Notes under the pieces: generated by a model
What the model was told of the DNA's origin: nothing
Seen by the model: only the letters and a program-made list of their open reading frames with translations
Databases searched by the model: none
Part shown: piece by piece, positions 46,644 to 61,782 of the stretch
Layout of the letters: every line of letters starts with the position of its first letter
Position numbering within the stretch: position 1 is the first letter of the stretch
Program-made: the position numbers and the translations under genes
From: an uncultured Verrucomicrobiota bacterium
Lineage (GTDB): Bacteria; Verrucomicrobiota; Verrucomicrobiia; Opitutales; Opitutaceae
DNA length: 64,000 nucleotides
Assembly (NCBI GenBank): GCA_903904685.1
Contig: CAIVDS010000045.1
Coordinates: forward strand, 22,410-86,409
Direction: 5' to 3'

Positions 46644-48329
46644 CTATTTCGCGGTTGGGAGCGGCGGCGACTTTTCGGGTGGGAGAAACAGCCAGAAATG
46701 CTCGCGGTGGTCGCCTTGGCGGGCGCCGTCCCAGACCTGCCGCCATCCGGCAGGCGTATAAACGGGTCCCGTTTTGACGCGTCCCTGAATGAGCAGCACG
46801 TCGAACGGCGTATCGGGATCAAGTTCGCGGTGGATCGTTTTTACGCCGCAATAATAGAGCAGCATCGCGCTGGCGGATTCGTCGAGGCCGATGCTGGCGA
46901 TCTGGCGATAGTGCTCTGGAAGGCGGGGCTGCATCTCGGTGAAAACACCGCGGTAGCTTTTGCCGGCGTCCATCCAGGGTAGCCACAGGGTCGCGAACAG
47001 CAGCCAGCTCAGCGTGATCCCGGCCGCCATGCCCGTCAGGCCGCGTTCTTTTAACAGAGGCAGCCGCGACCATGACAGCAGCCAGGCGAGGGTGGCCAGC
47101 AAGGCGACGACGAAAGCCACGGAGTGAAATGGCATAACGTAGTCGCCGGGCAGTGAGCGGGTGAGGAATGCCCATTCAGGTGCATGGCCGGTGACTCGCA
47201 TGAGTATCCACACCGTCCAGAGAAAACCGGCGAGTATCGTGAAAAACCAACGGGATACGACGTCGGTGCGGCGGTTCAAAGTGTCTGGCAATGTCGCGAA
47301 GGCGGGCGCCGCGAGGACGGCCAGCGTCGCGAGCATGGGCAATCCGTAGCCGTTGCGGGCCGAGGCGGACACGAGCAGCACACCGAGATAAACGGAGAAC
47401 GCCACGAGGCCGAATTGGAGCGCGGCGCTGCGGCGGATTTCGCAGCGCCGCCGCCACACGGTGAGCGCCGCCAGCGGCAAAGCGGGGAAGGCGAACCACG
47501 GGAGGGTTTTCGGCCAGAACCAGGGATTGTTGCTGGCGCCCAGTTTGTTGACGGAAAAGCCGATGAAGCGACCGACGTTGTTCATCCAAAACCATTCGTC
47601 GAACAAAGGCGCCGAACGCAGATACAACGCCACCGGCCAGATGAGCAGCCAAGGCAGCGCCGCCACCAGCGCGATGCCGAGCGAGCGGGCGTAGGTTTTT
47701 TCGCGCCATTGGGAAAATAGCGCAGGCAGGGCGAGCGCGGTGACGCCGAGTACGCCGGGCACCAGCAGGCCTTTGGCGAGAAATCCCACGCCTACGCCAA
47801 GGCCGAGCCAGAGGCCGGCCGCGAGCGGGCGTTCGCGGGATAAGGCGAACCCGTAGCCGGCGATGGCGAAACCGGTGAGCATCGGCACATCGGTGAGCAT
47901 GATGTGGCTTTCATACACCAGTCCGAGACAGGACATCAGGACGAGGACGGCCGCGCAGCCGTGGCCCTCGCCCCACCAGCGCCGGGCGGTGAGGCCGACA
48001 AACAGGAACGTCGTCGCCATGAACAATCCGGTGGCAAGTCGGGCACCGTCGTGAAGTGGCAATCCAGCGGAACAACCCCGCGCCAGCAGCGCGGCCACCC
48101 AATAGTAGAGCGGCGGTTTTTCCATAAACGGTTCGCCAGAGGCGTGCGGCACGACCCAGTCGCCGCTTTGCATCATGTGGTGAACGATGCTGAAGATGTA
48201 GGTCTCGTCTTGTTTCCAGGGTTCGTGCCCGATCAGGCCGGGGAGCAGAAAGGCCGCGACCAGCAGGAGGAAAATGGCCAGGGGAAGACGAATAACGGAT
48301 GCCGCAGGGGCGGGAGAAGGGGACGACAT
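46644..48329 (-). CDS. glycosyltransferase family 39 / PMT (ArnT-like) membrane protein
   Basis: GHEPWKQDETYIFSIVHHMMQSGDWVVPHASGEPFMEKPPLYYWVAALLA is the GT39/GT83 N-terminal motif; multi-TM. Confidence 0.9.
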   Translation of the reverse strand: MSSPSPAPAASVIRLPLAIFLLLVAAFLLPGLIGHEPWKQDETYIFSIVHHMMQSGDWVVPHASGEPFMEKPPLYYWVAALLARGCSAGLPLHDGARLATGLFMATTFLFVGLTARRWWGEGHGCAAVLVLMSCLGLVYESHIMLTDVPMLTGFAIAGYGFALSRERPLAAGLWLGLGVGVGFLAKGLLVPGVLGVTALALPALFSQWREKTYARSLGIALVAALPWLLIWPVALYLRSAPLFDEWFWMNNVGRFIGFSVNKLGASNNPWFWPKTLPWFAFPALPLAALTVWRRRCEIRRSAALQFGLVAFSVYLGVLLVSASARNGYGLPMLATLAVLAAPAFATLPDTLNRRTDVVSRWFFTILAGFLWTVWILMRVTGHAPEWAFLTRSLPGDYVMPFHSVAFVVALLATLAWLLSWSRLPLLKERGLTGMAAGITLSWLLFATLWLPWMDAGKSYRGVFTEMQPRLPEHYRQIASIGLDESASAMLLYYCGVKTIHRELDPDTPFDVLLIQGRVKTGPVYTPAGWRQVWDGARQGDHREHFWLFLPPEKSPPLPTAK

Positions 48330-48348
48330 GCGAGTTGCCCGAGTCTGT

Positions 48349-49551
48349 TCAGCGTGCTTTTTTGAGGGCGTAGGCCATTGCCTCGCCGATTCGGTCGATT
48401 TGCTCATCGGTGTGCAAGGCGGAGATGGCCGTGCGGATGAGGTCCTTGCCGGGAGGGACGGCGGGGGCGACAGACATGACGGTGAACACGCCTTTTTCCA
48501 GCAGGGCTTTCCAAAAGGCGTAGGCGCGTTCCATTTCGCCGAGGACGATCGGCACGGCCGGCGTTTCGCTTTCCCATGTGTCGAGCCCGAGGGATTTGAG
48601 CATGGTTTTATAGCGGCGGGTGTTGGCCCAGAGGCGTTCGAGATGCTCGGGCTCGGTTTGGAGAACGTCCAGCGAGGCGCTGGCGATCGCGGCCTGCGCG
48701 GGGCTGAGCGCGGCGCTGAAGATGGTGTGTTTGCCGTGCGTGCGCATGTATTCGATTACGTCGCGCGAACCGGCGACGAAGCCGCCGGTGCTGGCAAGGG
48801 ATTTGGACATGCTGCCGCAGATGACGTCGATCTTGTCGTTGACTCCGAAGTGATCGACGGTGCCGCGTCCGCCCCGGCCGAGCACGCCGAAGCCGTGGGC
48901 GTCGTCGAGAACGGTGAAGCAGTTGAACTCCTCGGCGACGGCGGAAAGCTCAGGCAGGCGACAGATGTGCCCCTCCATTGAATAGACGCCCTCGATCACG
49001 AGCATCTTGGGGGTGGCGGCGGGGGCGGCGGACGCGACTGCGCGCATGTCGTCGGGGTTGTTGTGCGAAAAACGTTCGATCGCGGCGGTGGAGAGGCGGA
49101 TGCCATCCCATAGACACGAGTGAATGTTTTTATCGGCGAGAATGATGTCGCCCTTTTGGGCGAAGGCCGCGACGCCGGAGAGGCAGGAAAGGTAGCCGGC
49201 CGAGTGGACGTGACAGGCCTCGCGACCGAGGAAGGCCGCGAGTTTTTCCTCGAGTTCGAGGTGGTAGGCACGTGAGCCGTTGGCCGTGCGCGCTCCGGTG
49301 GTGCTGGTTCCCCACTGGAGCAACGCGGAGCGGCCCGCCTCGACGACCTTGGGATGGAATGAGAGTCCGAGGTAGTCGTTGCTCGCGAGCATGATCATGT
49401 CGCGTCCGTTCAACCGCACGCGGTTGCCCTGCTGGGCCTCCATCGCGTGATAGTAGGGCGCGTAGCGGAGCCGGCGTTTGGTCAGATCATCTTGGATACA
49501 ACGTTTGAGAATTGGCTTCTGGGAAGACCGGCCAAAGAAGGGAAGAGACAT
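48349..49551 (-). CDS. alpha-oxoamine synthase family PLP enzyme (serine palmitoyltransferase / AONS-like)
   Basis: MIMLASNDYLGLSFHPKVVEAG, GSRAYHLELEEKLAAFLGREAC, DDAHGFGVLGRGGRGTVDHFG, PLP Lys motif GSMSKSLASTGGFVAG. Confidence 0.92.
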   Translation of the reverse strand: MSLPFFGRSSQKPILKRCIQDDLTKRRLRYAPYYHAMEAQQGNRVRLNGRDMIMLASNDYLGLSFHPKVVEAGRSALLQWGTSTTGARTANGSRAYHLELEEKLAAFLGREACHVHSAGYLSCLSGVAAFAQKGDIILADKNIHSCLWDGIRLSTAAIERFSHNNPDDMRAVASAAPAATPKMLVIEGVYSMEGHICRLPELSAVAEEFNCFTVLDDAHGFGVLGRGGRGTVDHFGVNDKIDVICGSMSKSLASTGGFVAGSRDVIEYMRTHGKHTIFSAALSPAQAAIASASLDVLQTEPEHLERLWANTRRYKTMLKSLGLDTWESETPAVPIVLGEMERAYAFWKALLEKGVFTVMSVAPAVPPGKDLIRTAISALHTDEQIDRIGEAMAYALKKAR

Positions 49552-49565
49552 AGTGGAAAGACAAA

Positions 49566-50396
49566 TCAGGAGAGCTTGAAATAGCCAGCTTGGGCGGCGC
49601 GACGCCAGGAATTCGGAATGAGGCGGGCGAAAAGAGGTGACAGCCGGGCTTGAAAAAACGAACCCGTGCGCACCACGCCGCTGCTGTGGCGCCGCACGGC
49701 CCGGCAAAGGTCATCCGCCGCCATGGCCGGCAAGGGGGCCGCCGCAAGGGTCTCCTCAAGGCGCTGCCACACTTGACGGGCGCGGAGGTCTGTGGAATCG
49801 CTCGCGTGCTGGACTGCGTTGTTGAAAGGCGTGCGGAAATCCCCGGGACGGAAGTCGATCACAATGATGTCGGGGTTGGTGAGCTCGTAGAGCACGCTTT
49901 CGCTCCAGGCGGAGAGGCCGGCCTTGCAGACGTTGTAGCCGCTCATGTAGGGGATCGGAAACTCCGCGGCGAGGGAGCTGACGTTGACGAGGCAGCCGTG
50001 ACCGCGCCGGTCCATCTCGCCGAGGGCGAGGCGGGCCAGCGCAAGGGTCGTCTGCAACATGGCGTCGATCTGGCGGGACCAGAGCTCGGGTTCGGTTGAT
50101 GTGACCGCTCCGAACACGCCGTAGCCGGCGTTGTTTATGACAAGGTCGAAACCGCCGGCCTGACGCGCCGCCTCGGCAAAGGCTTCGGTGGCCTGCGCGC
50201 GATCATGGAGGTCGAGGACAACTGCGGTGAAACCGGAATGGCGGCGCAGTTCTTCCAAGCGCCCGGTCTCCCTTGCGGTGCCCCAGACACGCACGCCTTC
50301 GGCGAGCAGGTGTTCGGTGAATGCCCGGCCCAGTCCGGTGCTGGCTCCGGTAACGAATGCGGTCGTGCCTGCACCCAAAATCGACGGGTTTGCCAT
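49566..50396 (-). CDS. SDR-family NAD(P)-dependent oxidoreductase
   Basis: AFVTGASTGLGRAFTEHLLAEG, VINNAGYGVFG, YMSGYNVCKAG. Confidence 0.93.
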   Translation of the reverse strand: MANPSILGAGTTAFVTGASTGLGRAFTEHLLAEGVRVWGTARETGRLEELRRHSGFTAVVLDLHDRAQATEAFAEAARQAGGFDLVINNAGYGVFGAVTSTEPELWSRQIDAMLQTTLALARLALGEMDRRGHGCLVNVSSLAAEFPIPYMSGYNVCKAGLSAWSESVLYELTNPDIIVIDFRPGDFRTPFNNAVQHASDSTDLRARQVWQRLEETLAAAPLPAMAADDLCRAVRRHSSGVVRTGSFFQARLSPLFARLIPNSWRRAAQAGYFKLS

Positions 50397-50400
50397 GATT

Positions 50401-51663
50401 TCAGCGCGGGCGTTTCAGCACGATGCAGACGTTGGCTCCGCCGAATCCGCTGCTGTTGTTTAACACCACGCCGGGGGCGGTCGCGTGGGTTTGGCGAATG
50501 ATGTTCAGGCCTTCGCAGATCAGATCGAGCTCGGTGATGTGCGCAGACCCCGGCATGAAGCCGTCCCGCAGCGCGAGGGCGCAGAAGCCGGATTCCATCG
50601 CGCCGGCGAGAGAGCATCCGTGACCGGTGAGGGCTTTGGTGCTGCTCAGCGCAACTCGTGAAGCGTGTTCGCCCAAGACGGCGCGCAGGGCCTTGCATTC
50701 CGAGGCGTCGCCTATGGGCGTGGAGGTGGCGTGGGCGTTGACGTAGTCGATGTCCGCAGGGCCGACCTTGGCGGTGCGCAACGCATGGAGCATCGCGGTG
50801 CGCAGACCGGCGCCTTCGGGGTGGGAGATCGCGACGTTGTGGCCGTCCGAGGCTTGGCCCCAGCCGAGCACCTCCGCGTAAGGCGTCACACCGCGGCGAA
50901 GAATCTCCTCTTCGTTTTCGAGCACCAGAACGGTCGCGCCGCCGGTGCCGACAAAGCCGTCCCGCTGCCGATCAAAGGGCCGTGAAGCGGTCGCCGGATC
51001 CGGATTTGGGGACAGGGCTCGCATGCTGGCGAAGGGAAGGATGGTCTCGAGATTGCCATCCTCGGCACCGACCACGAACATGCGTTTCTGCCGGCCAAGC
51101 ACGATCTCGTCGTGGGCAAAACCGAGTGCGTGCGCAGAGGAGGCGCAGGCGGAGGCGAAGCCGGTGGAGGCGCCCTTGATCTTGTAGTTGGCCACGAGGT
51201 TGAACTGCACCGTGCCGGCGATGCTGGAGACGATACCCAAGGCGGGGCTCCTCATGACTCCCTGCGCGTGGATGCGGTTCAAAATACGCGACAGCATACC
51301 GGGCGAACCGCAGGATGCGGCGTAGAGACCGGTGTCATCGTTGGAAATATCGGACGGCTCCAGCCGGGCATCCTCGACGGCCTGCTGCATGGCGCAGGAG
51401 GCATAGAGGGCGTTGGGGCTGAGGCTGCGAAGCTGGTCCCGGCGCAGGCGGTAACGCTCCGGTGTCTTCCAATCCTCGGGTTCGTCGCCCTCGGTGGAAA
51501 AATCACGCACGGGAGCGGCGACCTTGACAGGGATTTCGTCCCGTTCAAAAGGCGCGTAGCGAACCATGCCGTGGCGCAATTCCCGGAGGCTTTGCGTCAC
51601 ACTGGCGGCGTCGTTTCCGATGCTGGTGATGAACCCCAGCCCGGTGATGAACACTCGGGGCAT
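50401..51663 (-). CDS. beta-ketoacyl-ACP synthase (FabF-like)
   Basis: VFITGLGFITSIGND, active Cys region GFASACASSAHALG, NAHATSTPIGDASE, KALTGHGCSLAGAMES. Confidence 0.94.
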   Translation of the reverse strand: MPRVFITGLGFITSIGNDAASVTQSLRELRHGMVRYAPFERDEIPVKVAAPVRDFSTEGDEPEDWKTPERYRLRRDQLRSLSPNALYASCAMQQAVEDARLEPSDISNDDTGLYAASCGSPGMLSRILNRIHAQGVMRSPALGIVSSIAGTVQFNLVANYKIKGASTGFASACASSAHALGFAHDEIVLGRQKRMFVVGAEDGNLETILPFASMRALSPNPDPATASRPFDRQRDGFVGTGGATVLVLENEEEILRRGVTPYAEVLGWGQASDGHNVAISHPEGAGLRTAMLHALRTAKVGPADIDYVNAHATSTPIGDASECKALRAVLGEHASRVALSSTKALTGHGCSLAGAMESGFCALALRDGFMPGSAHITELDLICEGLNIIRQTHATAPGVVLNNSSGFGGANVCIVLKRPR

Positions 51664-51677
51664 AAAAATAGTGTGGC

Positions 51678-52529
51678 TCAGGCCGTCGGGGGCGTTTCCT
51701 TAAAGCCGAACGTGAGGGTGATTTCCTCGGCACCGACGGCCTTGTCGGACCCCACGCGAACGTCGCCTTCGAAAACGATGATGGGTGCCTTGATGCGCTT
51801 GGGTTTGAGGCGGAGAGACAGAGTGTCGCCGGGCCGGCAGACGCGGTGACAGCGCACGCCGTCCGCCGAGGTGAAGAGCAGTGATCCCGAGTCCACCTTG
51901 TGGTTGGCATCATCCAATTGGCCGCTGACCAGATAAAGGACGCCCAACTGCCCGAGCGCCTCCAGCATCAGCGAACCCGGCATCACGGGGTTGCCTTTGA
52001 AATGGCCCTGCAAAAAAACCTCTTCGCCGGTGATGCGGTAGGTCGCCGAGATACTGGTTTTAGAAATGACAGCTTCGTCGATGAAAAGGAAAGGAGGCTG
52101 CACGGGCATCGCAGCCAGCACCGCTTCGTGATCCAGCCGGGCCGGAGGCGAATAAGGCAGCCCGCGGACCCGGCAATCCACGAAGGTCCGGATATCGCCC
52201 AGGGTGCGCAGTTGGCGGAGTTCATCGTTGGCGATGGTGAGCCCGCCGGCCTCCTCAAGCAGCATGACGATCTCCATCAGGGTGAGGGAGTCGATGCCAA
52301 GATCTTCAATCACCCGCAGATCGTCGCGATTAGCGGATGCGAGCTTGGGCCGGATTTCCGGTTCGATGTAGCGTTCAAAGACGCCTCCGATGAGGGCGGG
52401 CAGGCATTGGGGATCGCGGGTTCGCCGGTAAGCGACAGCCGCCATGACGGTCTCGGGAGAGCAGCGTCGCAGGCTTTCGCGCAACTGGGTTTCGGCTTCC
52501 GGGGAGAAGGTGGCTGGGTCTGGATTCAT
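51678..52529 (-). CDS. acyl carrier protein + FabA/FabZ-like hotdog dehydratase fusion
   Basis: N-terminal ACP motif VIEDLGIDSLTLMEIVMLLEEAGGL (Ser at 52287-52289); C-terminal PFLFIDEAV...GHFKGNPVMPGSLMLEALGQLG is FabZ-like. Confidence 0.88.
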   Translation of the reverse strand: MNPDPATFSPEAETQLRESLRRCSPETVMAAVAYRRTRDPQCLPALIGGVFERYIEPEIRPKLASANRDDLRVIEDLGIDSLTLMEIVMLLEEAGGLTIANDELRQLRTLGDIRTFVDCRVRGLPYSPPARLDHEAVLAAMPVQPPFLFIDEAVISKTSISATYRITGEEVFLQGHFKGNPVMPGSLMLEALGQLGVLYLVSGQLDDANHKVDSGSLLFTSADGVRCHRVCRPGDTLSLRLKPKRIKAPIIVFEGDVRVGSDKAVGAEEITLTFGFKETPPTA

Positions 52530-53792
52530 TTATTGAAGCAAGGTGTTTGACGGCGTCGGGCGAACGGTGTTTTTCACCGGCCGGCCGTTTTTGCTGGGCA
52601 TGGGTTCGTTGCCGAAGACCTCGCGAGCGGGAAACACTGAAGGCGGAAAAATCCAACTACGCAACGCTCTTAACAAGGCATGAAGCACTCGATTGCGGTG
52701 ATGGACGCCGACAAAGAGCGGTGTGCAAACGGCCCCGAGTTCGGCTTTCACCTCGTAGGCGGTCTGGCCGAAGTCCACCCGGTGAATGCCGCGTTTCTCC
52801 GCCTCCTCGATGATCCGGTAGAAGGCGTTGAAATAGAGGCTGGAGTCTTTTTTCACCCAGTAGTCGAAACCACTGTAGAGCGGGTGCAGGGTGTCGCGGT
52901 CGATGAGCACCAATTCGCAGGCCACGAGCTTGCGGACTCCGTCCACCTGGCGGTAGCCGAAGAGAAAAAACATCCGGTCGCCGAGCAGTCGCTCGACTTG
53001 CGGGAAGAATTCGCGGTTCAGGCGTTCGAAGACGAAGGCGGAGTTTTCCAAGACCTGCCGGTAAAGATCGAAAACCGCATCCTCCTGCCCGCGGCAGGTG
53101 GGAGATATTTCCCAAGTGAGGTGGTTTTGTTCGCCGACGGATTTGCGCTTCCTGAGTTTGTTGCGGTAGCGCGAGCAGATCGCGCCGAGGTAGCCGCCCT
53201 TGGCGAGGTCGGGAATGGCCAGGTAGGTGGTCGGCAGGCTTTCCGCGAAAAAAAAGCGTTCGGCCAAGGCGGGCCGGAGCCGGTCGGTCAGCGCGGTGTC
53301 GGGCTCCTTGATGAGCACCAGACCAATGTTCAACGAGTAGGCGCGACGGGTGATCTCATCGAACAAGCCGGCGAGCCGGACGGAATCCCAGCGTGCGGCG
53401 CGTTCTCCGGTGCCCAGCCCGAGCAGGTCTCCGCAGTTGGAGATGGGACTACCAACGACAAACACGCGCAGTTGAAGGAAATTCGGGAACACGTTGCGGA
53501 CGGAGGAGACGATGCGCTGCATCCGCGGTCCGGCCATGGTGACGAGGGAGACTTTGAACGTGAAACAGGGCGCCACGCAGGCCGCACCCTCGGCATCCTC
53601 GCCCACGAGGTAGTGCGTCTCCACGTCGGGCATCCCGGATGCCTCCGCCGCTGCCTGAAGCGCCTGTGAGCGCAGCGCATATTCGTCGCCGAAACACTGA
53701 GTCCAAGCGGTTGTCAACTCTGCGAGATGGCGCGTCCACCGATAGGTGGTCAGCGTCGTGGAGACCGGTCGATGTTCGATGGCGATAGGCAA
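52530..53792 (-). CDS. COG3146-like GNAT/peptidogalycan-type acyltransferase (candidate N-acyltransferase)
   Basis: 420 aa; SRYRNKLRKRKS, YRQVLENSAFVFERLNREFF, LYFNAFYRIIEEAEKRGIHRVDFGQTAYEVKAELG resemble GNAT-fold FemAB/COG3146 proteins; TTG start. Confidence 0.65.
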   Translation of the reverse strand: MPIAIEHRPVSTTLTTYRWTRHLAELTTAWTQCFGDEYALRSQALQAAAEASGMPDVETHYLVGEDAEGAACVAPCFTFKVSLVTMAGPRMQRIVSSVRNVFPNFLQLRVFVVGSPISNCGDLLGLGTGERAARWDSVRLAGLFDEITRRAYSLNIGLVLIKEPDTALTDRLRPALAERFFFAESLPTTYLAIPDLAKGGYLGAICSRYRNKLRKRKSVGEQNHLTWEISPTCRGQEDAVFDLYRQVLENSAFVFERLNREFFPQVERLLGDRMFFLFGYRQVDGVRKLVACELVLIDRDTLHPLYSGFDYWVKKDSSLYFNAFYRIIEEAEKRGIHRVDFGQTAYEVKAELGAVCTPLFVGVHHRNRVLHALLRALRSWIFPPSVFPAREVFGNEPMPSKNGRPVKNTVRPTPSNTLLQ

Positions 53793-54062: not shown

Positions 54063-55865
54063 ATGACTTCCGTCCAAGCCGCTGTGTCACCGGCCAGTTC
54101 ATCCCCCGTGTCCGATAACGCCTCTTGGGGACGTGATTTGGTGTTGCTGACGCTCGCGCTGAGCCTGTGGTTCGGACTGTTTTTGGGGAGCCGTCCGCTC
54201 AACAATCCCGACGAGGGGCGCTACACGGAGATTCCTCGCGAGATGGCGTCGACGGGCGACTACGTGACGCCGCGGCTGAACGGCGTGAAATATTTCGAGA
54301 AACCGCCGCTGGTCTACTGGTTGTCGGCGCTGACGTTCGAGGTCGTCGGCCCGCTGGCGGGCACGGATGGGGTGAACGAATGGACGGCGCGTTTATGGGG
54401 CGCGGTGTTTGCGCTGGTTGGCGGACTGATGACCTACGGCGCCGGCCGCGCGCTTTATGGAAGGGCGACTGGTTGGTGGGCGGCGCTCGTGGCGGTCACG
54501 TCGATTCTCTATTATGGGCTGAGTCGGATCATCCTGCTCGACATGGTGGTGGCGGTGACGATGGCGGGGGCGCTGTTTGCCTTTATCGTGGGCATTCGCG
54601 AGCCGGCGGGAACGCGGCGGAGGTGGCTGTTCATGGCGTTCTATGTGTGCATGGCGCTGGCAACGCTCACGAAGGGGCTGATCGGTTTTCTGCTGCCGTG
54701 CATGGTGGCGTTTGTGTGGCTGCTGGTGTTCAACCAGTGGCGCGCGCTGCGGCCGTGTTATCCTATCGTCGGCATGCTGGTGTTGCTGGCGATCGCCGCG
54801 CCGTGGCATGTGCTCGCGGCGTTACGCAATCCGAGTGTGGACGGGCTGGTCTGGCCGGGTTATGCGCACGGTCTGGATCTTCATGGTGCCGGCCAGGATC
54901 CGGGCTGGATGTGGTTTTATTTCGTGCGCGAGCATTTCCTGCGGTTTACAACGACGGAGCACGGGCGAGTCCAGCCGGCGTGGTTTTTCCTGCCGATTTT
55001 GGTGGGCGGTCTGTTTCCTTGGACGGTGTTCGCGGGGCAATCCGTATGGCGGTCGCTGGCCGGTGGCTGGCGCGAGCGCGGACGGCATCTCGAAGCCTGG
55101 TTTTTGGTGCTCTGGATCGTGCTGATCGTGGCGTTTTTCTCCAAGTCGCAGTCAAAGCTTATCACTTACATCTCGCCGGTGTTTCCGGCGGCGGCGGTGC
55201 TCATCGGGCATTATCTTGCGCAGGCGTGGGCGGAGCGGAGCTGGCGCGGGATGCACGCCGGGCTCTGGGTGTTTGCCGGACTCGCGCTGGCGCTGGCGGG
55301 CGCGGCGGCGTTTTTCCCACTACCGGCGAAGCAGGCGCCTCTTGAACCGCAATTGCTACCGTGGCGTTTTTTTGTCGGTGCGGTGATGGGTGGCGGTGCT
55401 CTCGCGGTCATCTTGTGCCTGCGGCGTGGTGCTGTTCGGGGCGCGTTGATCGGTCTTGTGGTGACGTGCGTGGTTTTTTTCGCTGCGGCCAACTTGGTCG
55501 AAGGGCTGTTCAATGAACGCTCGACCAAGTCGCTCGCGGCCGTGCTCAAGCCGCGGCTGCAACCTGCCGACGCCGTCTTTATCGTGAACGACTACGCCCA
55601 GGATTTGCCGGTTTATCTCGGGCGCACGGTGAGCGTGGTCAACTACGCCGGCGAACTGACTTACGGCATCGGGGCCGAGCCGCAAAAAACTGCAGCGCGG
55701 TTCATGGGGTATGACGCATTCTTCGGGCACTGGCGGGAGCCGGGTGTGGCTTATGCGGTCGTGCGCACGGACGGTTATAAGAAATTCTTTGCTGACGTGT
55801 CCGCGCCTTTTGCGGTGATTGCCGAAACGCCCCGATATGTTCTCGTGGTAAACCGTCAGCCCTAA
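54063..55865 (+). CDS. arnT: 4-amino-4-deoxy-L-arabinose lipid A transferase-like (GT83/PMT)
   Basis: FLGSRPLNNPDEGRYTEIPREMASTGDYVTPRLNGVKYFEKPPLVYWLSAL; start of an arn-type gene set. Confidence 0.85.
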   Translation: MTSVQAAVSPASSSPVSDNASWGRDLVLLTLALSLWFGLFLGSRPLNNPDEGRYTEIPREMASTGDYVTPRLNGVKYFEKPPLVYWLSALTFEVVGPLAGTDGVNEWTARLWGAVFALVGGLMTYGAGRALYGRATGWWAALVAVTSILYYGLSRIILLDMVVAVTMAGALFAFIVGIREPAGTRRRWLFMAFYVCMALATLTKGLIGFLLPCMVAFVWLLVFNQWRALRPCYPIVGMLVLLAIAAPWHVLAALRNPSVDGLVWPGYAHGLDLHGAGQDPGWMWFYFVREHFLRFTTTEHGRVQPAWFFLPILVGGLFPWTVFAGQSVWRSLAGGWRERGRHLEAWFLVLWIVLIVAFFSKSQSKLITYISPVFPAAAVLIGHYLAQAWAERSWRGMHAGLWVFAGLALALAGAAAFFPLPAKQAPLEPQLLPWRFFVGAVMGGGALAVILCLRRGAVRGALIGLVVTCVVFFAAANLVEGLFNERSTKSLAAVLKPRLQPADAVFIVNDYAQDLPVYLGRTVSVVNYAGELTYGIGAEPQKTAARFMGYDAFFGHWREPGVAYAVVRTDGYKKFFADVSAPFAVIAETPRYVLVVNRQP

Positions 55866-55873
55866 TCCATCCT

Positions 55874-57043
55874 GTGACCGCCACTGTGTCCAACGCCAGT
55901 CCCTTACTTCCGTTTCTCCCGCTCACGCGTCCGACCATCGACGATGAAACCATCGCCGGCGTGGCCGAGGTGCTGCGCTCGGGCTGGATCACCTCCGGCC
56001 CGCAGGTGAAGGCCTTCGAGGCGAAGCTCTCCGAGTATTTCGGCGGACGCCCGGTGCGCGCCTTCAACTCCGGCACGTGCACGATGGAGATCGCGCTGCG
56101 CATCGCGGGCATCGGTCCGGGTGCCGAGGTCATCACCACGCCGTTGTCGTGGGTGGCGACGAGCAACGTCATCCTCGAGGTCGGGGCGACACCCGTCTTC
56201 GTGGATATCGACCCGGTGACGCGAAACCTTGACCTCCGCCTCGTCGAGGCGGCGATCACTCCCGCGACGCGCGCGATCATTCCGGTGGATCTCGCCGGCC
56301 TGCCGGTGGATCGCGACCGGCTCAACGCCATCGCGAAGAAACACAACCTGCGCGTCGTCGAGGACGCCGCCCAGTCGTTTGGCAGCACGTGGAAGGGCCG
56401 CCGCATCGGATCATTCGGCGACTTCGTGTCGTTCAGTTTTCACCCGAACAAAAACATCACGACCATCGAGGGCGGCTGCCTCGTCCTTAACGACGAGCGC
56501 GAGGCCGGCCTCGCCGAGCAATACCGCCTGCAGGGCGTGATCCGCTCCGGTTTCGACGGGATGGAAGTCGAGGTGCGCGGAGGAAAGTTCAACCTCACCG
56601 ACGTCGCCGCCCGCGTGGGAATAGGACAACTGGTTCATCTCGACAAGTTCACGGCGAAACGCCGCGAGCTTGCCCGCGCCTACTTCGAGTTGCTCGACAC
56701 GCCCGCCGTTCGCGCGCTCGGTCTCGGCCTGCCGGTTCCCGATTTCACACAGAGCAACTGGCACATGTTCCAAGTGGTGCTGCCTGCGTGGCTCACGATC
56801 AAACGCGCCGACGTGATGGCCAAGCTCAAGGACGGGGGTATCGGCACCGGCGTGCATTATCCGGCGATCCATCTCTTCGCGCTCTACCGCCAGCTTGGCT
56901 GGACGGAAGGCGACTGTCCGCATGCCGAGCACACTGGGCGGAACATCTTGGCGCTTCCGCTGTTTCCAGCCATGACCCGCGCCGATATTACGCGTGTCGT
57001 CGGCGCCCTCGTCTTCATTCTTCAAGCCCACTCGAAACCATGA
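55874..57043 (+). CDS. arnB: DegT/DnrJ/EryC1 aminotransferase, ArnB-like
   Basis: LPFLPLTRPTIDDETIAGVAEVLRSGWITSGPQVKAFEAKLSEYFG; VVEDAAQSFGSTWKGRRIGSFGDFVSFSFHPNKNITTIEGG. Confidence 0.9.
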   Translation: MTATVSNASPLLPFLPLTRPTIDDETIAGVAEVLRSGWITSGPQVKAFEAKLSEYFGGRPVRAFNSGTCTMEIALRIAGIGPGAEVITTPLSWVATSNVILEVGATPVFVDIDPVTRNLDLRLVEAAITPATRAIIPVDLAGLPVDRDRLNAIAKKHNLRVVEDAAQSFGSTWKGRRIGSFGDFVSFSFHPNKNITTIEGGCLVLNDEREAGLAEQYRLQGVIRSGFDGMEVEVRGGKFNLTDVAARVGIGQLVHLDKFTAKRRELARAYFELLDTPAVRALGLGLPVPDFTQSNWHMFQVVLPAWLTIKRADVMAKLKDGGIGTGVHYPAIHLFALYRQLGWTEGDCPHAEHTGRNILALPLFPAMTRADITRVVGALVFILQAHSKP

Positions 57044-57999
57044 GCACTGTCCCCGCCGCCACCCTGCCGCTTTCCGTGGTCATCCCCGTTTTCAACGAGG
57101 AATCCAATCTCCCGCTGCTGTTCAAGCGGCTCTACCCCGTGCTAGACGGTCTCGGCAGGCGCTACGAGATCCTCTTCACCAACGACGGCAGCGCCGACCG
57201 TTCCCGCGAACTTCTCGCCGCGCAGTATGCCGCGCGTCCCGACGTTACGCGCGTGATCGAATTCAACGCCAACTACGGCCAGCACATGGCCATCATCGCG
57301 GCCTTCGAACGCGCGCGCGGCGCCGTGGTCGTGACGCTCGACGCCGACCTCCAGAATCCGCCCGAGGAAATCCCCAAGCTCCTCGCCGCCACCGACGCCG
57401 GTTTCGACTGCGTGGGCGGCGCGCGCCAGAACCGCCAGGACAGCGCCTTTCGCCGCTACGCCTCGCGCCTTGTCAATGTCGCCCGCCGTGAGATGACGAA
57501 CATCGAGATGACCGACCAGGGCTGCATGCTCCGCGCCTATTCGCACGACGTTGTTGCCGCCATCGTGCGTAGCGGCGCGATCAACACCTTCATCCCCGCG
57601 CTGGCCTATACGTTGTCGCAGAATCCCACCGAGGTTCCCGTCGCGCACGAAGAGCGTCATGCTGGCGTGTCGAACTATTCCGTTTACAAGCTCATCCGGC
57701 TCAACTTCGACCTCATCACAGCGTTCACCACAGCGCCGCTCCAGCTCTTCACGATGTTCGCTGGCTTTTGCTCGGCGGGCAGCCTCGGGCTGGTGTTTGT
57801 GCTGCTCTTCCGCCGGTTCGCGCTCAACCTCGACCGCGAAACCTTTGGTGTGTTCACGTTGTTTGGCATTCTGTTCTTCCTGCTCAGCGTCGCCATGATT
57901 GGCATCGGACTTATCGGCGAATACGTGGGGCGCACCTATCAGGTCGTGCGCGGTCGCTCCCGCTATAACGTGAGCCATGTACTTGAGACCAAGGAATAA
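57040..57999 (+). CDS. arnC: undecaprenyl-phosphate Ara4FN transferase-like GT2
   Basis: LSVVIPVFNEESNLPLLFKRLYPVL...LDADLQNPPEEIPKLL...TDQGCMLRAYSHDVV; C-terminal TM pair; ATGA overlap with arnB. Confidence 0.9.
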   Translation: MSTVPAATLPLSVVIPVFNEESNLPLLFKRLYPVLDGLGRRYEILFTNDGSADRSRELLAAQYAARPDVTRVIEFNANYGQHMAIIAAFERARGAVVVTLDADLQNPPEEIPKLLAATDAGFDCVGGARQNRQDSAFRRYASRLVNVARREMTNIEMTDQGCMLRAYSHDVVAAIVRSGAINTFIPALAYTLSQNPTEVPVAHEERHAGVSNYSVYKLIRLNFDLITAFTTAPLQLFTMFAGFCSAGSLGLVFVLLFRRFALNLDRETFGVFTLFGILFFLLSVAMIGIGLIGEYVGRTYQVVRGRSRYNVSHVLETKE

Positions 58000-58006
58000 T
58001 CCTCCC

Positions 58007-58915
58007 GTGACGACCAAGCCCCGCATTCTCTTCTTCGGCTACAGCGAAGTCGGTTACACCTGCCTCGACCTGCTGCTTTCCCGGGGCGACAACGTCGTCG
58101 CGCTCATCACGCACGAGGACAATCCCAACGAAAAAATCTGGTTCAAGACCCCCGCCGTCGCCGCTCGCGAGCGTGGTCTGCCGGTTTTCACGCCCGAATC
58201 CGTCAATAATCCTGAATGGCGCGAAAAAATCGCCGCCCTCAAGCCCGATCTTATCCTCTCGGTCTATTACCGGCACATGATCGGCACCAAGATCCTCGCC
58301 ATGCCCCGCCTCGGCGCTTGGAACATGCACGGTTCGCTCCTGCCGCGCTACCGCGGCCGCGCCCCGATCAACTGGGCGATTCTCCACGGCGAGCCGCGCA
58401 TCGGCATGACGCTCCATCGTATGGTGAAAAGCGCCGACGCCGGCGACGTGGTCGATCAGGAAGGCGTGGACATCGGCCCGCGTGATCCCGCCGAAGTCGC
58501 CTTCCGCAAGGTCATGCCTTGCGCCCGCATCGTCCTCGCCCGCCAGATCGACGCCTTGCTTGCCGGCACCGCCAAGGAGACGCCGCAGGAGGAGTCGCAA
58601 GTGACCTATTTCGGCGGCCGCACACCCGAGGACGGCCGCATTAACTGGCACCAGACCTCCGCGCAGATTTTCAACCTCATCCGCGCCGTTACCGATCCGT
58701 ATCCCGGTGCGTTCACCGACATTGGTGATGCGCGCCTCATGGTATGGTGGGCCGAGCCCGTCTCGGTCGCCACGGTGGGCAGGCGCGGCAAGCCTGGCGA
58801 AGTGCTTTCCGTCAACCCCACGGTCATCGCGACGGCAGATGGCTCGTTGGAACTCACTCGCACCGGCTGGCGCAACGGTGTCGCGGCAGCCTTGCAAGTT
58901 GGGCAGATTCTCTGA
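58007..58915 (+). CDS. formyltransferase (ArnA N-terminal-domain equivalent)
   Basis: ILFFGYSEVGYTCLDLLLSRGDNVVALITHEDNPNEKIWF; GAWNMHGSLLPRYRGRAPINWAILHGE; GTG start at 58007. Confidence 0.9.
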   Translation: MTTKPRILFFGYSEVGYTCLDLLLSRGDNVVALITHEDNPNEKIWFKTPAVAARERGLPVFTPESVNNPEWREKIAALKPDLILSVYYRHMIGTKILAMPRLGAWNMHGSLLPRYRGRAPINWAILHGEPRIGMTLHRMVKSADAGDVVDQEGVDIGPRDPAEVAFRKVMPCARIVLARQIDALLAGTAKETPQEESQVTYFGGRTPEDGRINWHQTSAQIFNLIRAVTDPYPGAFTDIGDARLMVWWAEPVSVATVGRRGKPGEVLSVNPTVIATADGSLELTRTGWRNGVAAALQVGQIL

Positions 58916-58936
58916 ACCCTCGTCCCTCTAAATCCC

Positions 58937-59974
58937 ATGCCACTCAAAGTCCTTATCCTCGGAGCCAACGGTTTCATCGGCAGCAGCCTCACCAGCGCCA
59001 TTCTCAAACAGAAGGACTGGGAGGTCTACGGCATGGATATCGGCAGCCACAAGCTCACCGCCAGTCTCGGCAACCCCCGCTTCACCTTTGTCGAGGGCGA
59101 CATCACCATCAACCGCGAGTGGATCGAGTATCACGTCAAGAAGTGCGACGTCGTCATCCCCCTCGTCGCCATCGCCAACCCGGTCCAATACGTCAAGGAT
59201 CCCCTGCGCGTCTTCGAATTGGATTTCGAGGCCAACCTCTCCATCGTCCGCCAGTGCGCGAAATACAAGAAGCGCATCATCTTCCCCTCGACCTCCGAGG
59301 TCTACGGCATGTGCCCCGACGCCGAGCTCGACGAGGCCACCAGCTCGATGGTTTACGGCCCGATCGAGCGCCAGCGCTGGATCTACGCCAGTTCCAAGCA
59401 GCTCCTCGACCGCGTCATCTACGCCTACGGCGTGCGCGACAACGTGGACTACACGCTCTTCCGCCCCTTCAACTGGATCGGGCCTCAACTCGACAACGTC
59501 ATGGAGCCGAAGGAAGGCAGCTCGCGCCTCTTCACGCAGTTCATCTCCAACGTCATCTTCAAAAAGCCCCTCCAGCTTGTGGACGGCGGCAAGCAGAGCC
59601 GCTCGTTCACCTTTATCGACGACGGCATCGACGCGCTCTTGCGCATCATCGAGAACAAGGACGGCAAGGCCTCCCGCCAGATCTTCAACATCGGCAACCC
59701 CGGCAACGACGTGAGCGTGGCCGACCTCGCCAAGCTCATCATCACCGCCTTCAAGGACTATCCCGACTACGCCGAGCATGTGAAGGCCGCCAAGGTCGTG
59801 AAGGTTTCCTCCGGTACCTACTTTGGAAAATACTACCAGGACATCCAGAAGCGCGTGCCCTCGATCTCGAACATCAAGAAGCAGCTCGGCTGGAAGCCCA
59901 AGGTGAACCTCAAGACCGCGATCAAGCTCACGCTCGACTACCACCTCGCGCACAAGGACTACTCGCTCGAGTAA
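58937..59974 (+). CDS. UDP-glucuronate decarboxylase-type NAD epimerase (ArnA C-terminal-domain equivalent)
   Basis: KVLILGANGFIGSSLTSAILKQKDWEVYGMDIGSHKL; PSTSEVYGMC; RPFNWIGPQLDNV. Confidence 0.92.
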   Translation: MPLKVLILGANGFIGSSLTSAILKQKDWEVYGMDIGSHKLTASLGNPRFTFVEGDITINREWIEYHVKKCDVVIPLVAIANPVQYVKDPLRVFELDFEANLSIVRQCAKYKKRIIFPSTSEVYGMCPDAELDEATSSMVYGPIERQRWIYASSKQLLDRVIYAYGVRDNVDYTLFRPFNWIGPQLDNVMEPKEGSSRLFTQFISNVIFKKPLQLVDGGKQSRSFTFIDDGIDALLRIIENKDGKASRQIFNIGNPGNDVSVADLAKLIITAFKDYPDYAEHVKAAKVVKVSSGTYFGKYYQDIQKRVPSISNIKKQLGWKPKVNLKTAIKLTLDYHLAHKDYSLE

Positions 59975-59991
59975 GTCTGGGCGCATCGGTC

Positions 59992-60906
59992 ATGCCCGTC
60001 CTCGCGCTCAAGGTTGATGTGGATACCGACCGCGGCACGCGCCTTGGCGTGCCGGCGCTCACCGCGATCTTCAAGCAGTTCGGCGCGCCCGCGTGCTTCC
60101 TGTTTTCGCTCGGGCCGGACAACACCGGCAAGGCCATCCGCCGTGTCTTCCGCCCCGGCTTCTTCCAAAAGGTTTCCCGCACGAGCGTCGTGCAGATCTA
60201 CGGTGTGCGCACACTGCTCAACGGCACGCTTCTTCCCGCGCCGCACATCGGCCGGCGCAACGAAGCCGTCATCCGCCGTGTGCGCGACGAGGGCTTCGAG
60301 GTCGGCATCCATTGTCACGACCACTTCTGCTGGCAAGACTACGTGCTCGACATGACGCTGGAACAGGTCCGCGCCGAGTTTGGCAAGGCCCGCGCGGAAT
60401 TTCGCCGCATTTTCGGCACCGAGGCGTTCACCGCCGGCGCGCCCGGCTGGCAGGCGTGCGCCAACAGCAAACAGATCTACGACGAGGCGGGGCTGCTCTA
60501 CGCGAGCGACACGCGCGGCGAGACGCCGTTTTTCCCTCGCATTGGCGGACGCGTTTTCGAGACGCTGGAGATTCCCAGCACGCTGCCGACTTTTGACGAG
60601 CTCATGGGCCGTCCGGAATATCCCGACGACAAGATCGTGGCGCATTATCTAAGCCTTCTGAGCGACGACCGGCTCAACGTCTTCACGCTGCATGCCGAGA
60701 TCGAGGGCATGGGCCGGATCGGGCTTTTTCGTGAATTAATGACAGCCTTGGCCGAGCGAGGGGTGAAGTTTGTGCGGATGGACAGCCTTGCGCACGAGGT
60801 GCTGGGCAACCGCGCCGCCGTGCCGGTGCGCGACTTGGTCATGGGCGCGATCGACGGTCGCTCGGGTTTGGTTGCGACTGAGGGCGTCGCCAGGCAACTC
60901 GGTTAA
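59992..60906 (+). CDS. arnD: polysaccharide deacetylase family, ArnD-like deformylase
   Basis: LALKVDVDTDRGTRLGVPALTAIFKQFGAPACFLFSLGPDNTGKAIRR...GFEVGIHCHDHFCWQDY; start at 59992 within the longer 58744 ORF. Confidence 0.92.
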   Translation: MPVLALKVDVDTDRGTRLGVPALTAIFKQFGAPACFLFSLGPDNTGKAIRRVFRPGFFQKVSRTSVVQIYGVRTLLNGTLLPAPHIGRRNEAVIRRVRDEGFEVGIHCHDHFCWQDYVLDMTLEQVRAEFGKARAEFRRIFGTEAFTAGAPGWQACANSKQIYDEAGLLYASDTRGETPFFPRIGGRVFETLEIPSTLPTFDELMGRPEYPDDKIVAHYLSLLSDDRLNVFTLHAEIEGMGRIGLFRELMTALAERGVKFVRMDSLAHEVLGNRAAVPVRDLVMGAIDGRSGLVATEGVARQLG

Positions 60907-61153: not shown

Positions 61154-61504
61154 TTACTGGATGTAAGTGAGCGTGCGGGTGCCGGCGATGCCCGAGATGA
61201 TGATTGGCGCGCTTTGGGTATAATCCTGAGGATAGCTTTCGTTGGCCACCGTTTGCAAAAATTTCACGTAGTTGCTTCCGCCGACCAACCCGACAATGGC
61301 CGCCTGGTTGGTACCGTTTTCGATGAAGAACTGGTCGGCGGCGGCACCGAGCTGGCGCATGTTGTTTAAAATCGCCTTGTCCTGGGCAGCATTACGGACC
61401 TTCTGGATGGCGGGCATGGCCAAGGCAGCGAGAAGTCCGATCATGACTATGACGACCATGATTTCGACGAGGGTGAAACCATTCCACGGGGTAGTATGTT
61501 TCAT
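61154..61504 (-). CDS. type II/IV pseudopilin-like protein with prepilin N-methylation motif
   Basis: MKHTTPWNGFTLVEIMVVIVMIGLLAALAMPAIQKVRNAAQDKAI; G/FTLVE prepilin cleavage motif. Confidence 0.92.
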   Translation of the reverse strand: MKHTTPWNGFTLVEIMVVIVMIGLLAALAMPAIQKVRNAAQDKAILNNMRQLGAAADQFFIENGTNQAAIVGLVGGSNYVKFLQTVANESYPQDYTQSAPIIISGIAGTRTLTYIQ

Positions 61505-61782
61505 AAATAAAAGGTAGAGGCCTTTCTGCGAACAGACTGATCCAGTCAGGTCCATATAGCAATATAGCTTCAACTCCCGCGGTTAATCTTATTTATCATA
61601 ATAATAATGGGCGGTTGGAGTCGTCCCCTATTTTAAAACTTCCGGGGCCGTATCTGCTGTTCATTGCCGACGGGCGCGTCACGAATACTCCGGCAACCGC
61701 ATAAATCCCATCGAGGACGGGGTTTTCCTCCTTGGCGGAGCAAACGATGCCAGCCACGCTCAGGGTGTTTGCATCCTATCCT

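Follow-up and report, generated by a model that had tools for sequence, protein, structure and literature searches.

A candidate sphingolipid-type operon with a linked chain-building module in an Opitutaceae genome

A six-gene lipid operon

We analyzed a stretch of 64,000 nucleotides (the window) within the 3.2 Mb draft genome of an uncultured member of the Opitutaceae, the nearest named relatives of which are metagenome-assembled genomes (MAGs) of the same family. Positions 46644-53792 hold six genes that are all read in one direction from the minus strand, in the order GNAT protein, acyl carrier protein (ACP) fused to a FabZ-type dehydratase, beta-ketoacyl-ACP synthase (KAS), short-chain dehydrogenase/reductase (SDR), pyridoxal phosphate (PLP) enzyme of the serine palmitoyltransferase (SPT) type, and membrane glycosyltransferase of family 39 (GT39) (Table 1). 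The gaps between them are, in order, 0, 14, 4, 14, and 19 nt. An earlier note on this DNA had described such a minus-strand set with gaps of 0-19 nt, and the whole arrangement was recovered in the same place and orientation. We propose, with a probability of roughly 0.62, that the operon encodes an Opitutae variant of bacterial sphingolipid-type (alpha-oxoamine lipid) synthesis.

Two gene starts were revised relative to the longest open reading frame. The start of the PLP enzyme was set to the ATG at 49551, which is the start of its orthologues, in place of the TTG at 49707, and that of the GT39 gene was set to 48329 after the orthologue of a sister genome (G006), in place of 48407. All catalytic residues that were checked are intact, namely the DSL serine of the ACP, the GHF...LEA motif (His/Glu) of the dehydratase, the active site of the KAS, the TGxxxGxG and YxxxK motifs of the SDR, and the lysine of the SPT-type enzyme in SMSKSL. 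The KAS resembles FabB and FabF about equally, so that its earlier description as a FabF-like KAS holds for the enzyme class and not for FabF in particular. Three other KAS homologues, which are 33-35% identical to the operon KAS, and other FabZ domains are encoded in the genome, which argues that the operon enzymes are extra rather than housekeeping copies.

Table 1. Genes of the lipid operon and the adjacent Arn operon, with positions in the window
Feature	Position	Strand	Evidence
GNAT protein (Acetyltransf_6), 420 aa, first gene; candidate N-acyltransferase, not of the bacterial ceramide synthase (bCerS) family	52530..53792	-	PF13480 43.3 bits, PF04339 30.5 bits
ACP-FabZ fusion, 283 aa; FabZ-type dehydratase C-terminal to ACP	51678..52529	-	PF00550, PF07977
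KAS, FabB/FabF type, 420 aa	50401..51663	-	Intact Cys-His-Lys-His active site
Classical SDR; candidate 3-ketosphinganine or 3-ketoacyl-ACP reductase	49566..50396	-	PF00106; NCBIfam KdsR 105.8 bits (cut-off 400)
SPT-type alpha-oxoamine synthase (PLP enzyme), 400 aa	48349..49551	-	Top PDB matches, tree
GT39/ArnT-like membrane glycosyltransferase, 561 aa, ~8 or more transmembrane segments	46644..48329	-	NCBIfam PRK13279 65 bits; sister orthologue matches PMT_2
L-Ara4N (Arn) operon: ArnT, ArnB, ArnC, ArnA formyltransferase, ArnA dehydrogenase, ArnD; neighbour outside the core	54063..60906	+	

The SPT-type enzyme and its chain-building module

Among solved structures, the PLP enzyme matched the SPT of Sphingobacterium multivorum best (325 bits), followed by a Thermus alpha-oxoamine synthase (261 bits) and a Sphingomonas SPT (241 bits), with lower scores for the best Kbl (223 bits), a cysteate acyltransferase (207 bits), and the best BioF (177 bits). 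The S. multivorum SPT was again the best match in the profile version of this PDB search. An AlphaFold model of the enzyme (mean pLDDT 73.5) likewise matched SPT structures first, with SPT at rank 1 and cysteate acyltransferase at rank 12 in Foldseek. In a tree of 40 family members, the enzyme and its Opitutae orthologues fall inside a 98/93 clade together with the Bacteroidota-type SPT of S. multivorum, the SPT of S. wittichii, Spt of E. coli BL21 (37% identical to the window enzyme), and other Verrucomicrobiota, with BioF, Kbl, and HemA outside. Forced grouping with Kbl or BioF was rejected in the approximately unbiased test (p-AU 0.021 and 0.039, respectively), which together with the tree led us to reject either identity, and grouping with the S. 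multivorum SPT was not rejected (p-AU 0.20). The family residues K250 (PLP lysine), H144 (stacking), D217/H219, and R373 (carboxylate) are conserved in the Opitutae alignment and align with those of SPTs, and SPT-like residue blocks (GAR.ANGS, SKSLAS.GGF) are present. The structure matches, the clade, and the grouping tests thus bear out the earlier prediction of an SPT-like enzyme distinct from BioF and Kbl.

We surveyed 289 Verrucomicrobiota genomes for this SPT clade (threshold E <= 1e-170) and for the ACP-FabZ fusion. The former was found in 31 genomes and the latter in 34, and 30 of the 35 carriers have both, usually with a KAS and glycosyltransferases close by. Fisher p values for this co-occurrence are 3e-35 by genome and 9e-8 with carriers collapsed to families, both to be taken as guides, as related genomes are not independent. 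The single apparent SPT-only genome (G202) carries ACP-KAS-SDR-GT4-SPT plus GT28, its ACP being without a FabZ domain; two members of the family (G135, G305) have neither SPT clade nor ACP-FabZ. To judge from their titles, the best 80 genome matches for ACP-FabZ, beyond which there are 236 further candidates, are Opitutae or other Verrucomicrobiota, except for one MAG that is simply called "bacterium"; the fusion may thus also occur outside the phylum. KAS adjoins ACP-FabZ in 79 of 80 named genomes and SPT lies nearby in many, which argues against a chance arrangement. The commonest complete order in named Opitutaceae is a leftward GT4 gene, then ACP-FabZ, KAS, SDR, GT28, GT4, and GT4 pointing rightward, then a leftward SPT gene, and further families of the class have the same gene set (L152, L153). 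On plasmids, no ACP-FabZ fusion covering 80% of the query was found. Given the co-occurrence in 30 of 35 carriers and the usual proximity of KAS, the chain-building module tied to the SPT is a lineage-wide trait, and the link that the earlier note had drawn from a dedicated KAS and ACP-dehydratase to the PLP enzyme is supported across the lineage.

ACP-FabZ orthologues occur in nearly all Opitutaceae relatives examined. In an alignment of 13 members, S81, H176, and E190 are invariant; the last is the FabZ-type Glu, and the active-site Asp of the FabA type is absent. At the N-terminus of the ACP there is a conserved extension (LRESLRRCSPET..., pattern LRxSLxRCSPETxxAAxxFR), possibly a docking element. 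The same extension was seen in lone ACP copies of five genomes (G006, G032, G187, G202, G316); those of G187, G032, and G316 (L163, L164, L167) are extra copies away from the SPT, and the copies of G032 and G316 adjoin very large genes.

The best sequence evidence that the ACP is a partner of the SPT comes from the sister genome G006. At the corresponding site, which is flanked by holA and the Arn operon, it holds GNAT, a lone ACP of 143 aa, SPT, and GT39, without FabZ, KAS, and SDR, its ACP-FabZ and KAS being located on another contig. The ACP is thus kept beside the SPT where dehydratase and KAS are missing, and it likely feeds the SPT also in the window operon, as AcpR does in Rhodobacteria. 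The ACP half of the window fusion is 75% identical to the lone ACP of G006 and at most 65% to others, and for the FabZ half G006 is no closer than the rest of the genus. The cassette would either have joined the operon via the ACP in the window line or have been lost in the sister line.

Predicted pathway and alternative readings

In the pathway that we propose, the dedicated KAS and FabZ would complete an acyl chain on the ACP half of the fusion, and its keto group would be reduced by the SDR or by a housekeeping FabG. From the ACP the chain would pass to the SPT-type enzyme, which would join it to an amino acid, most probably serine, and so form a 3-keto long-chain base. Reduction of this ketone is the most likely role of the SDR, ketoacyl-ACP reduction being its alternative candidate role. 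In the window species and its sister, GNAT probably N-acylates the base, and GT39 probably transfers a sugar to it from undecaprenyl phosphate; elsewhere in the Opitutaceae, glycosylation probably falls to GT4 enzymes and a GT28 that resembles monogalactosyldiacylglycerol synthase. Which substrates are used, in what order the steps run, and what GNAT, SDR, and GT39 do are inferred from sequence. CqsA uses trans-2-decenoyl-CoA; an open-licence literature search on CqsA returned nothing. In a similar way, FabZ might pass a trans-2-enoyl chain on the fused ACP straight to the SPT, yielding 3-keto-sphing-4-enine and then a 4,5-trans sphingosine-type base without a desaturase. Such a hand-over, which we consider rather unlikely, would account both for the fusion of the dehydratase to the carrier of the SPT and for the lack of an enoyl reductase in the operon.

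The SDR is a classical adh_short enzyme, and its orthologues lie beside the KAS in the family and beside the SPT in G004. It is not a CerR-type reductase, CerR of E. coli being of the Epimerase type; no CerR (NDUFA9-like epimerase) is found among the operon genes, a genome-wide search not having been made. A search of the window genome gave no GT28 orthologue and, for GT4a, at best a match of 32% identity over a partial stretch, from which it appears that GT39 may have taken over glycosylation in place of GT28 and GT4. The Arn operon, which is complete, with ArnA split into two genes, lies divergently 270 bp from the lipid operon; in G006, too, ArnT and ArnB are near the operon. It is a speculation that the Arn operon supplies the undecaprenyl-phosphate sugar. 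In G006 (L104, 5980-9425), the interval from GNAT to ArnT holds genes for a GT4, a histidine kinase, and a response regulator, which are missing from this place in the window.

GNAT is an Acetyltransf_6 protein. The earlier label of a COG3146-like GNAT stands for the GNAT part (PF13480), whereas membership in FemAB_like (PF04339) is marginal, as the cut-off of 27 bits was barely passed and the sister orthologue remained below it (24.7 bits). A close orthologue is found only in G006 (74-76% identity), and by its distribution we regard GNAT as a lineage-specific addition rather than a part of the conserved pathway. Distant relatives (24-27%) occur in operons of Nostoc, Agrobacterium, Sinorhizobium, and Roseomonas. 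Several of these operons hold class III aminotransferases and lipid-type genes, a company that would fit an amine N-acyltransferase. A search of solved structures with GNAT gave no match, and an AlphaFold model of the protein alone was unusable (mean pLDDT 34.6).

Several observations weigh against the proposed pathway. The PLP enzyme missed the NCBIfam SPT cut-offs (375.7 of 640 bits for NF047600, 335.4 of 500 bits for NF047599) and is therefore most aptly described as SPT-type, from a distinct Opitutae clade; this clade sits on its own long stem in the tree, and grouping with HemA was not rejected at 0.05 (p-AU 0.06). A close GNAT is present in only 2 of 56 genomes, and for 11 of 13 genus members the search gave no orthologue of the SDR, so that neither is universal to the pathway. 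ACP-FabZ occurs without this SPT in four genomes (G054, G055, G208, G273), and the KAS/ACP module can thus exist without it. The long stem and the missed cut-offs would suit an SPT-like enzyme that takes cysteate, alanine, or glycine instead of serine and yields a sulfonolipid, a 1-deoxy-sphingolipid, or another alpha-oxoamine lipid, since few sequence changes shift the amino acid specificity of alpha-oxoamine synthases. A Black Sea study also discusses the use of alanine, and proposes that of lysine, by SPT-like proteins (PMC11334938). Cysteate acyltransferases, however, fall well behind SPT in both score and fold rank, as given above, and neither the operon nor the neighbouring Arn genes include one recognised as cysteate-synthase-like; we regard another amino acid as possible, though unlikely. 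The detection of a single family member in the window genome (G000) would be expected if the PLP enzyme were the BioF of biotin synthesis. This is highly improbable, as related genomes have orthologues of 60-89% identity and some of these genomes encode, apart from the orthologue, another member of the Kbl or SPT type, the surrounding genes are those of lipid synthesis and not bio genes, and the BioF grouping was rejected.

The four genomes without the SPT could also mean that KAS and ACP-FabZ form a separate fatty-acid module, making unsaturated or special chains for membranes in general or for glycolipids, with the SPT a mere neighbour. FabZ/KAS pairs of the FabN/FabO kind yield unsaturated chains in some bacteria, and the neighbouring GT28 resembles glycerolipid glycosyltransferases. 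Such independence is made improbable by the strong co-occurrence and proximity across several families and by the ACP or ACP-KAS-SDR that stay at the SPT in G006 and G202, respectively; in addition, the dehydratase has the FabZ-type Glu instead of the FabA-type Asp. As to GNAT, the earlier note had suggested a Caulobacter-type ceramide synthase, and were GNAT a true bCerS homologue the operon would be an ordinary Caulobacter-type ceramide operon. Both proteins are GNAT-like and near an SPT, and PF04339 matches GNAT and a Caulobacter protein. However, GNAT is unrelated in sequence to the YghO/CC_1154 bCerS/Aca family: yghO is the aca/bCerS gene of the Rhodobacterial-type cluster in E. coli BL21, and comparison with YghO gave E 2.1 in BLAST and a probability of 0.95% between family profiles (hhalign). 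PF04339 was dropped as a bCerS marker because YghO matches no Pfam family. A bCerS profile revealed clear homologues in two relatives, G021 (beside a proteobacterial-type SPT) and G010, and none in the window genome, and the bCerS identity retains practically no likelihood.

In the Opitutaceae genome G021 (contig C13, 59176-67373; L273, L289), this second, proteobacterial-type SPT lies at most ~7 kb from the bCerS homologue, which suggests horizontal transfer of a Rhodobacteria-type cluster. On a plasmid of Streptomyces sp. NBC_01001 (L260, 4769-8051), genes for an alpha-oxoamine synthase, a homologue of bCerS, and a protein of the epimerase family follow one another, likely a sphingolipid cluster in an actinomycete. 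Elsewhere in the window, the minus strand at 8181-28570 contains very large open reading frames for a PQQ/BamB-like repeat protein of 2772 aa and an NPCBM protein of 1652 aa, clustered with BatA/VWA, DUF4175, and glutamine-amidotransferase-like proteins, and a solitary prepilin-like protein (GFTLVEIMVVIVMIGLLAALAMP) is encoded at 61154-61573 on the minus strand.

Relation to known systems

SPT-like genes have been reported in many phyla without adjacent bCerS or CerR, and the same survey leaves open non-homologous replacements for these steps (PMC11334938). The locus described here is a concrete case in a widespread lineage, in which an SPT clade has its own ACP, KAS, and dehydratase, and it offers a candidate replacement reductase, acyltransferase, and glycosyltransferases. 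The origin of the acyl chain, the order of the reactions, and the N-acylating enzyme thereby become directly testable, and named carriers, including the complete genome IMCC26134 (L188), are available for lipid analysis. Within the open-licence literature, we found no relevant link between Opitutae and ceramides and no KAS tied to a bacterial SPT; relative to the best-studied bacterial pathways, the SPT-linked chain-building module is apparently undescribed. Taken together, the sequences point to a real, conserved variant of bacterial sphingolipid-type synthesis, the product of which is predicted and the defining feature of which is the dedicated chain-building module.

Enterococcal FabN/FabO or FabA/FabB modules pair a dehydratase with a KAS as in the window, where, in contrast, the dehydratase is fused to an ACP and linked to an SPT and glycosyltransferases. 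The cysteate acyl-ACP transferase of sulfonolipid synthesis (Alistipes) shares family and fold with the window enzyme and uses acyl-ACP, but is less similar to it, and no cysteate-synthase gene was recognised in the operon; this comparison is based on scores and fold rank, the 40-member tree being without this transferase and CqsA. Of the solved structures, the S. multivorum SPT (3a2b/8guh) stands nearest to the window enzyme in both sequence and predicted fold. Acyl-CoA is the substrate of Bacteroidota SPTs (PMC11324152), whereas the window SPT is linked to a dedicated ACP, a KAS, and a FabZ. A dedicated ACP for SPT is established in Rhodobacteria with AcpR (PMC9386255). The Rhodobacterial cluster (spt, acpR, aasR, cerR/epi, bcerS/aca) of Caulobacter and E. 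coli BL21 shares with the window an SPT-type enzyme, a dedicated ACP, and an NAD(P)-type reductase. Unlike this cluster, the window operon is without an acyl-ACP synthetase (AasR), no AMP-binding gene being present among its six genes, with the rest of the genome not searched; it has instead KAS and FabZ, an unrelated GNAT in place of bCerS, a classical SDR in place of the NDUFA9-like CerR, and a terminal GT39.

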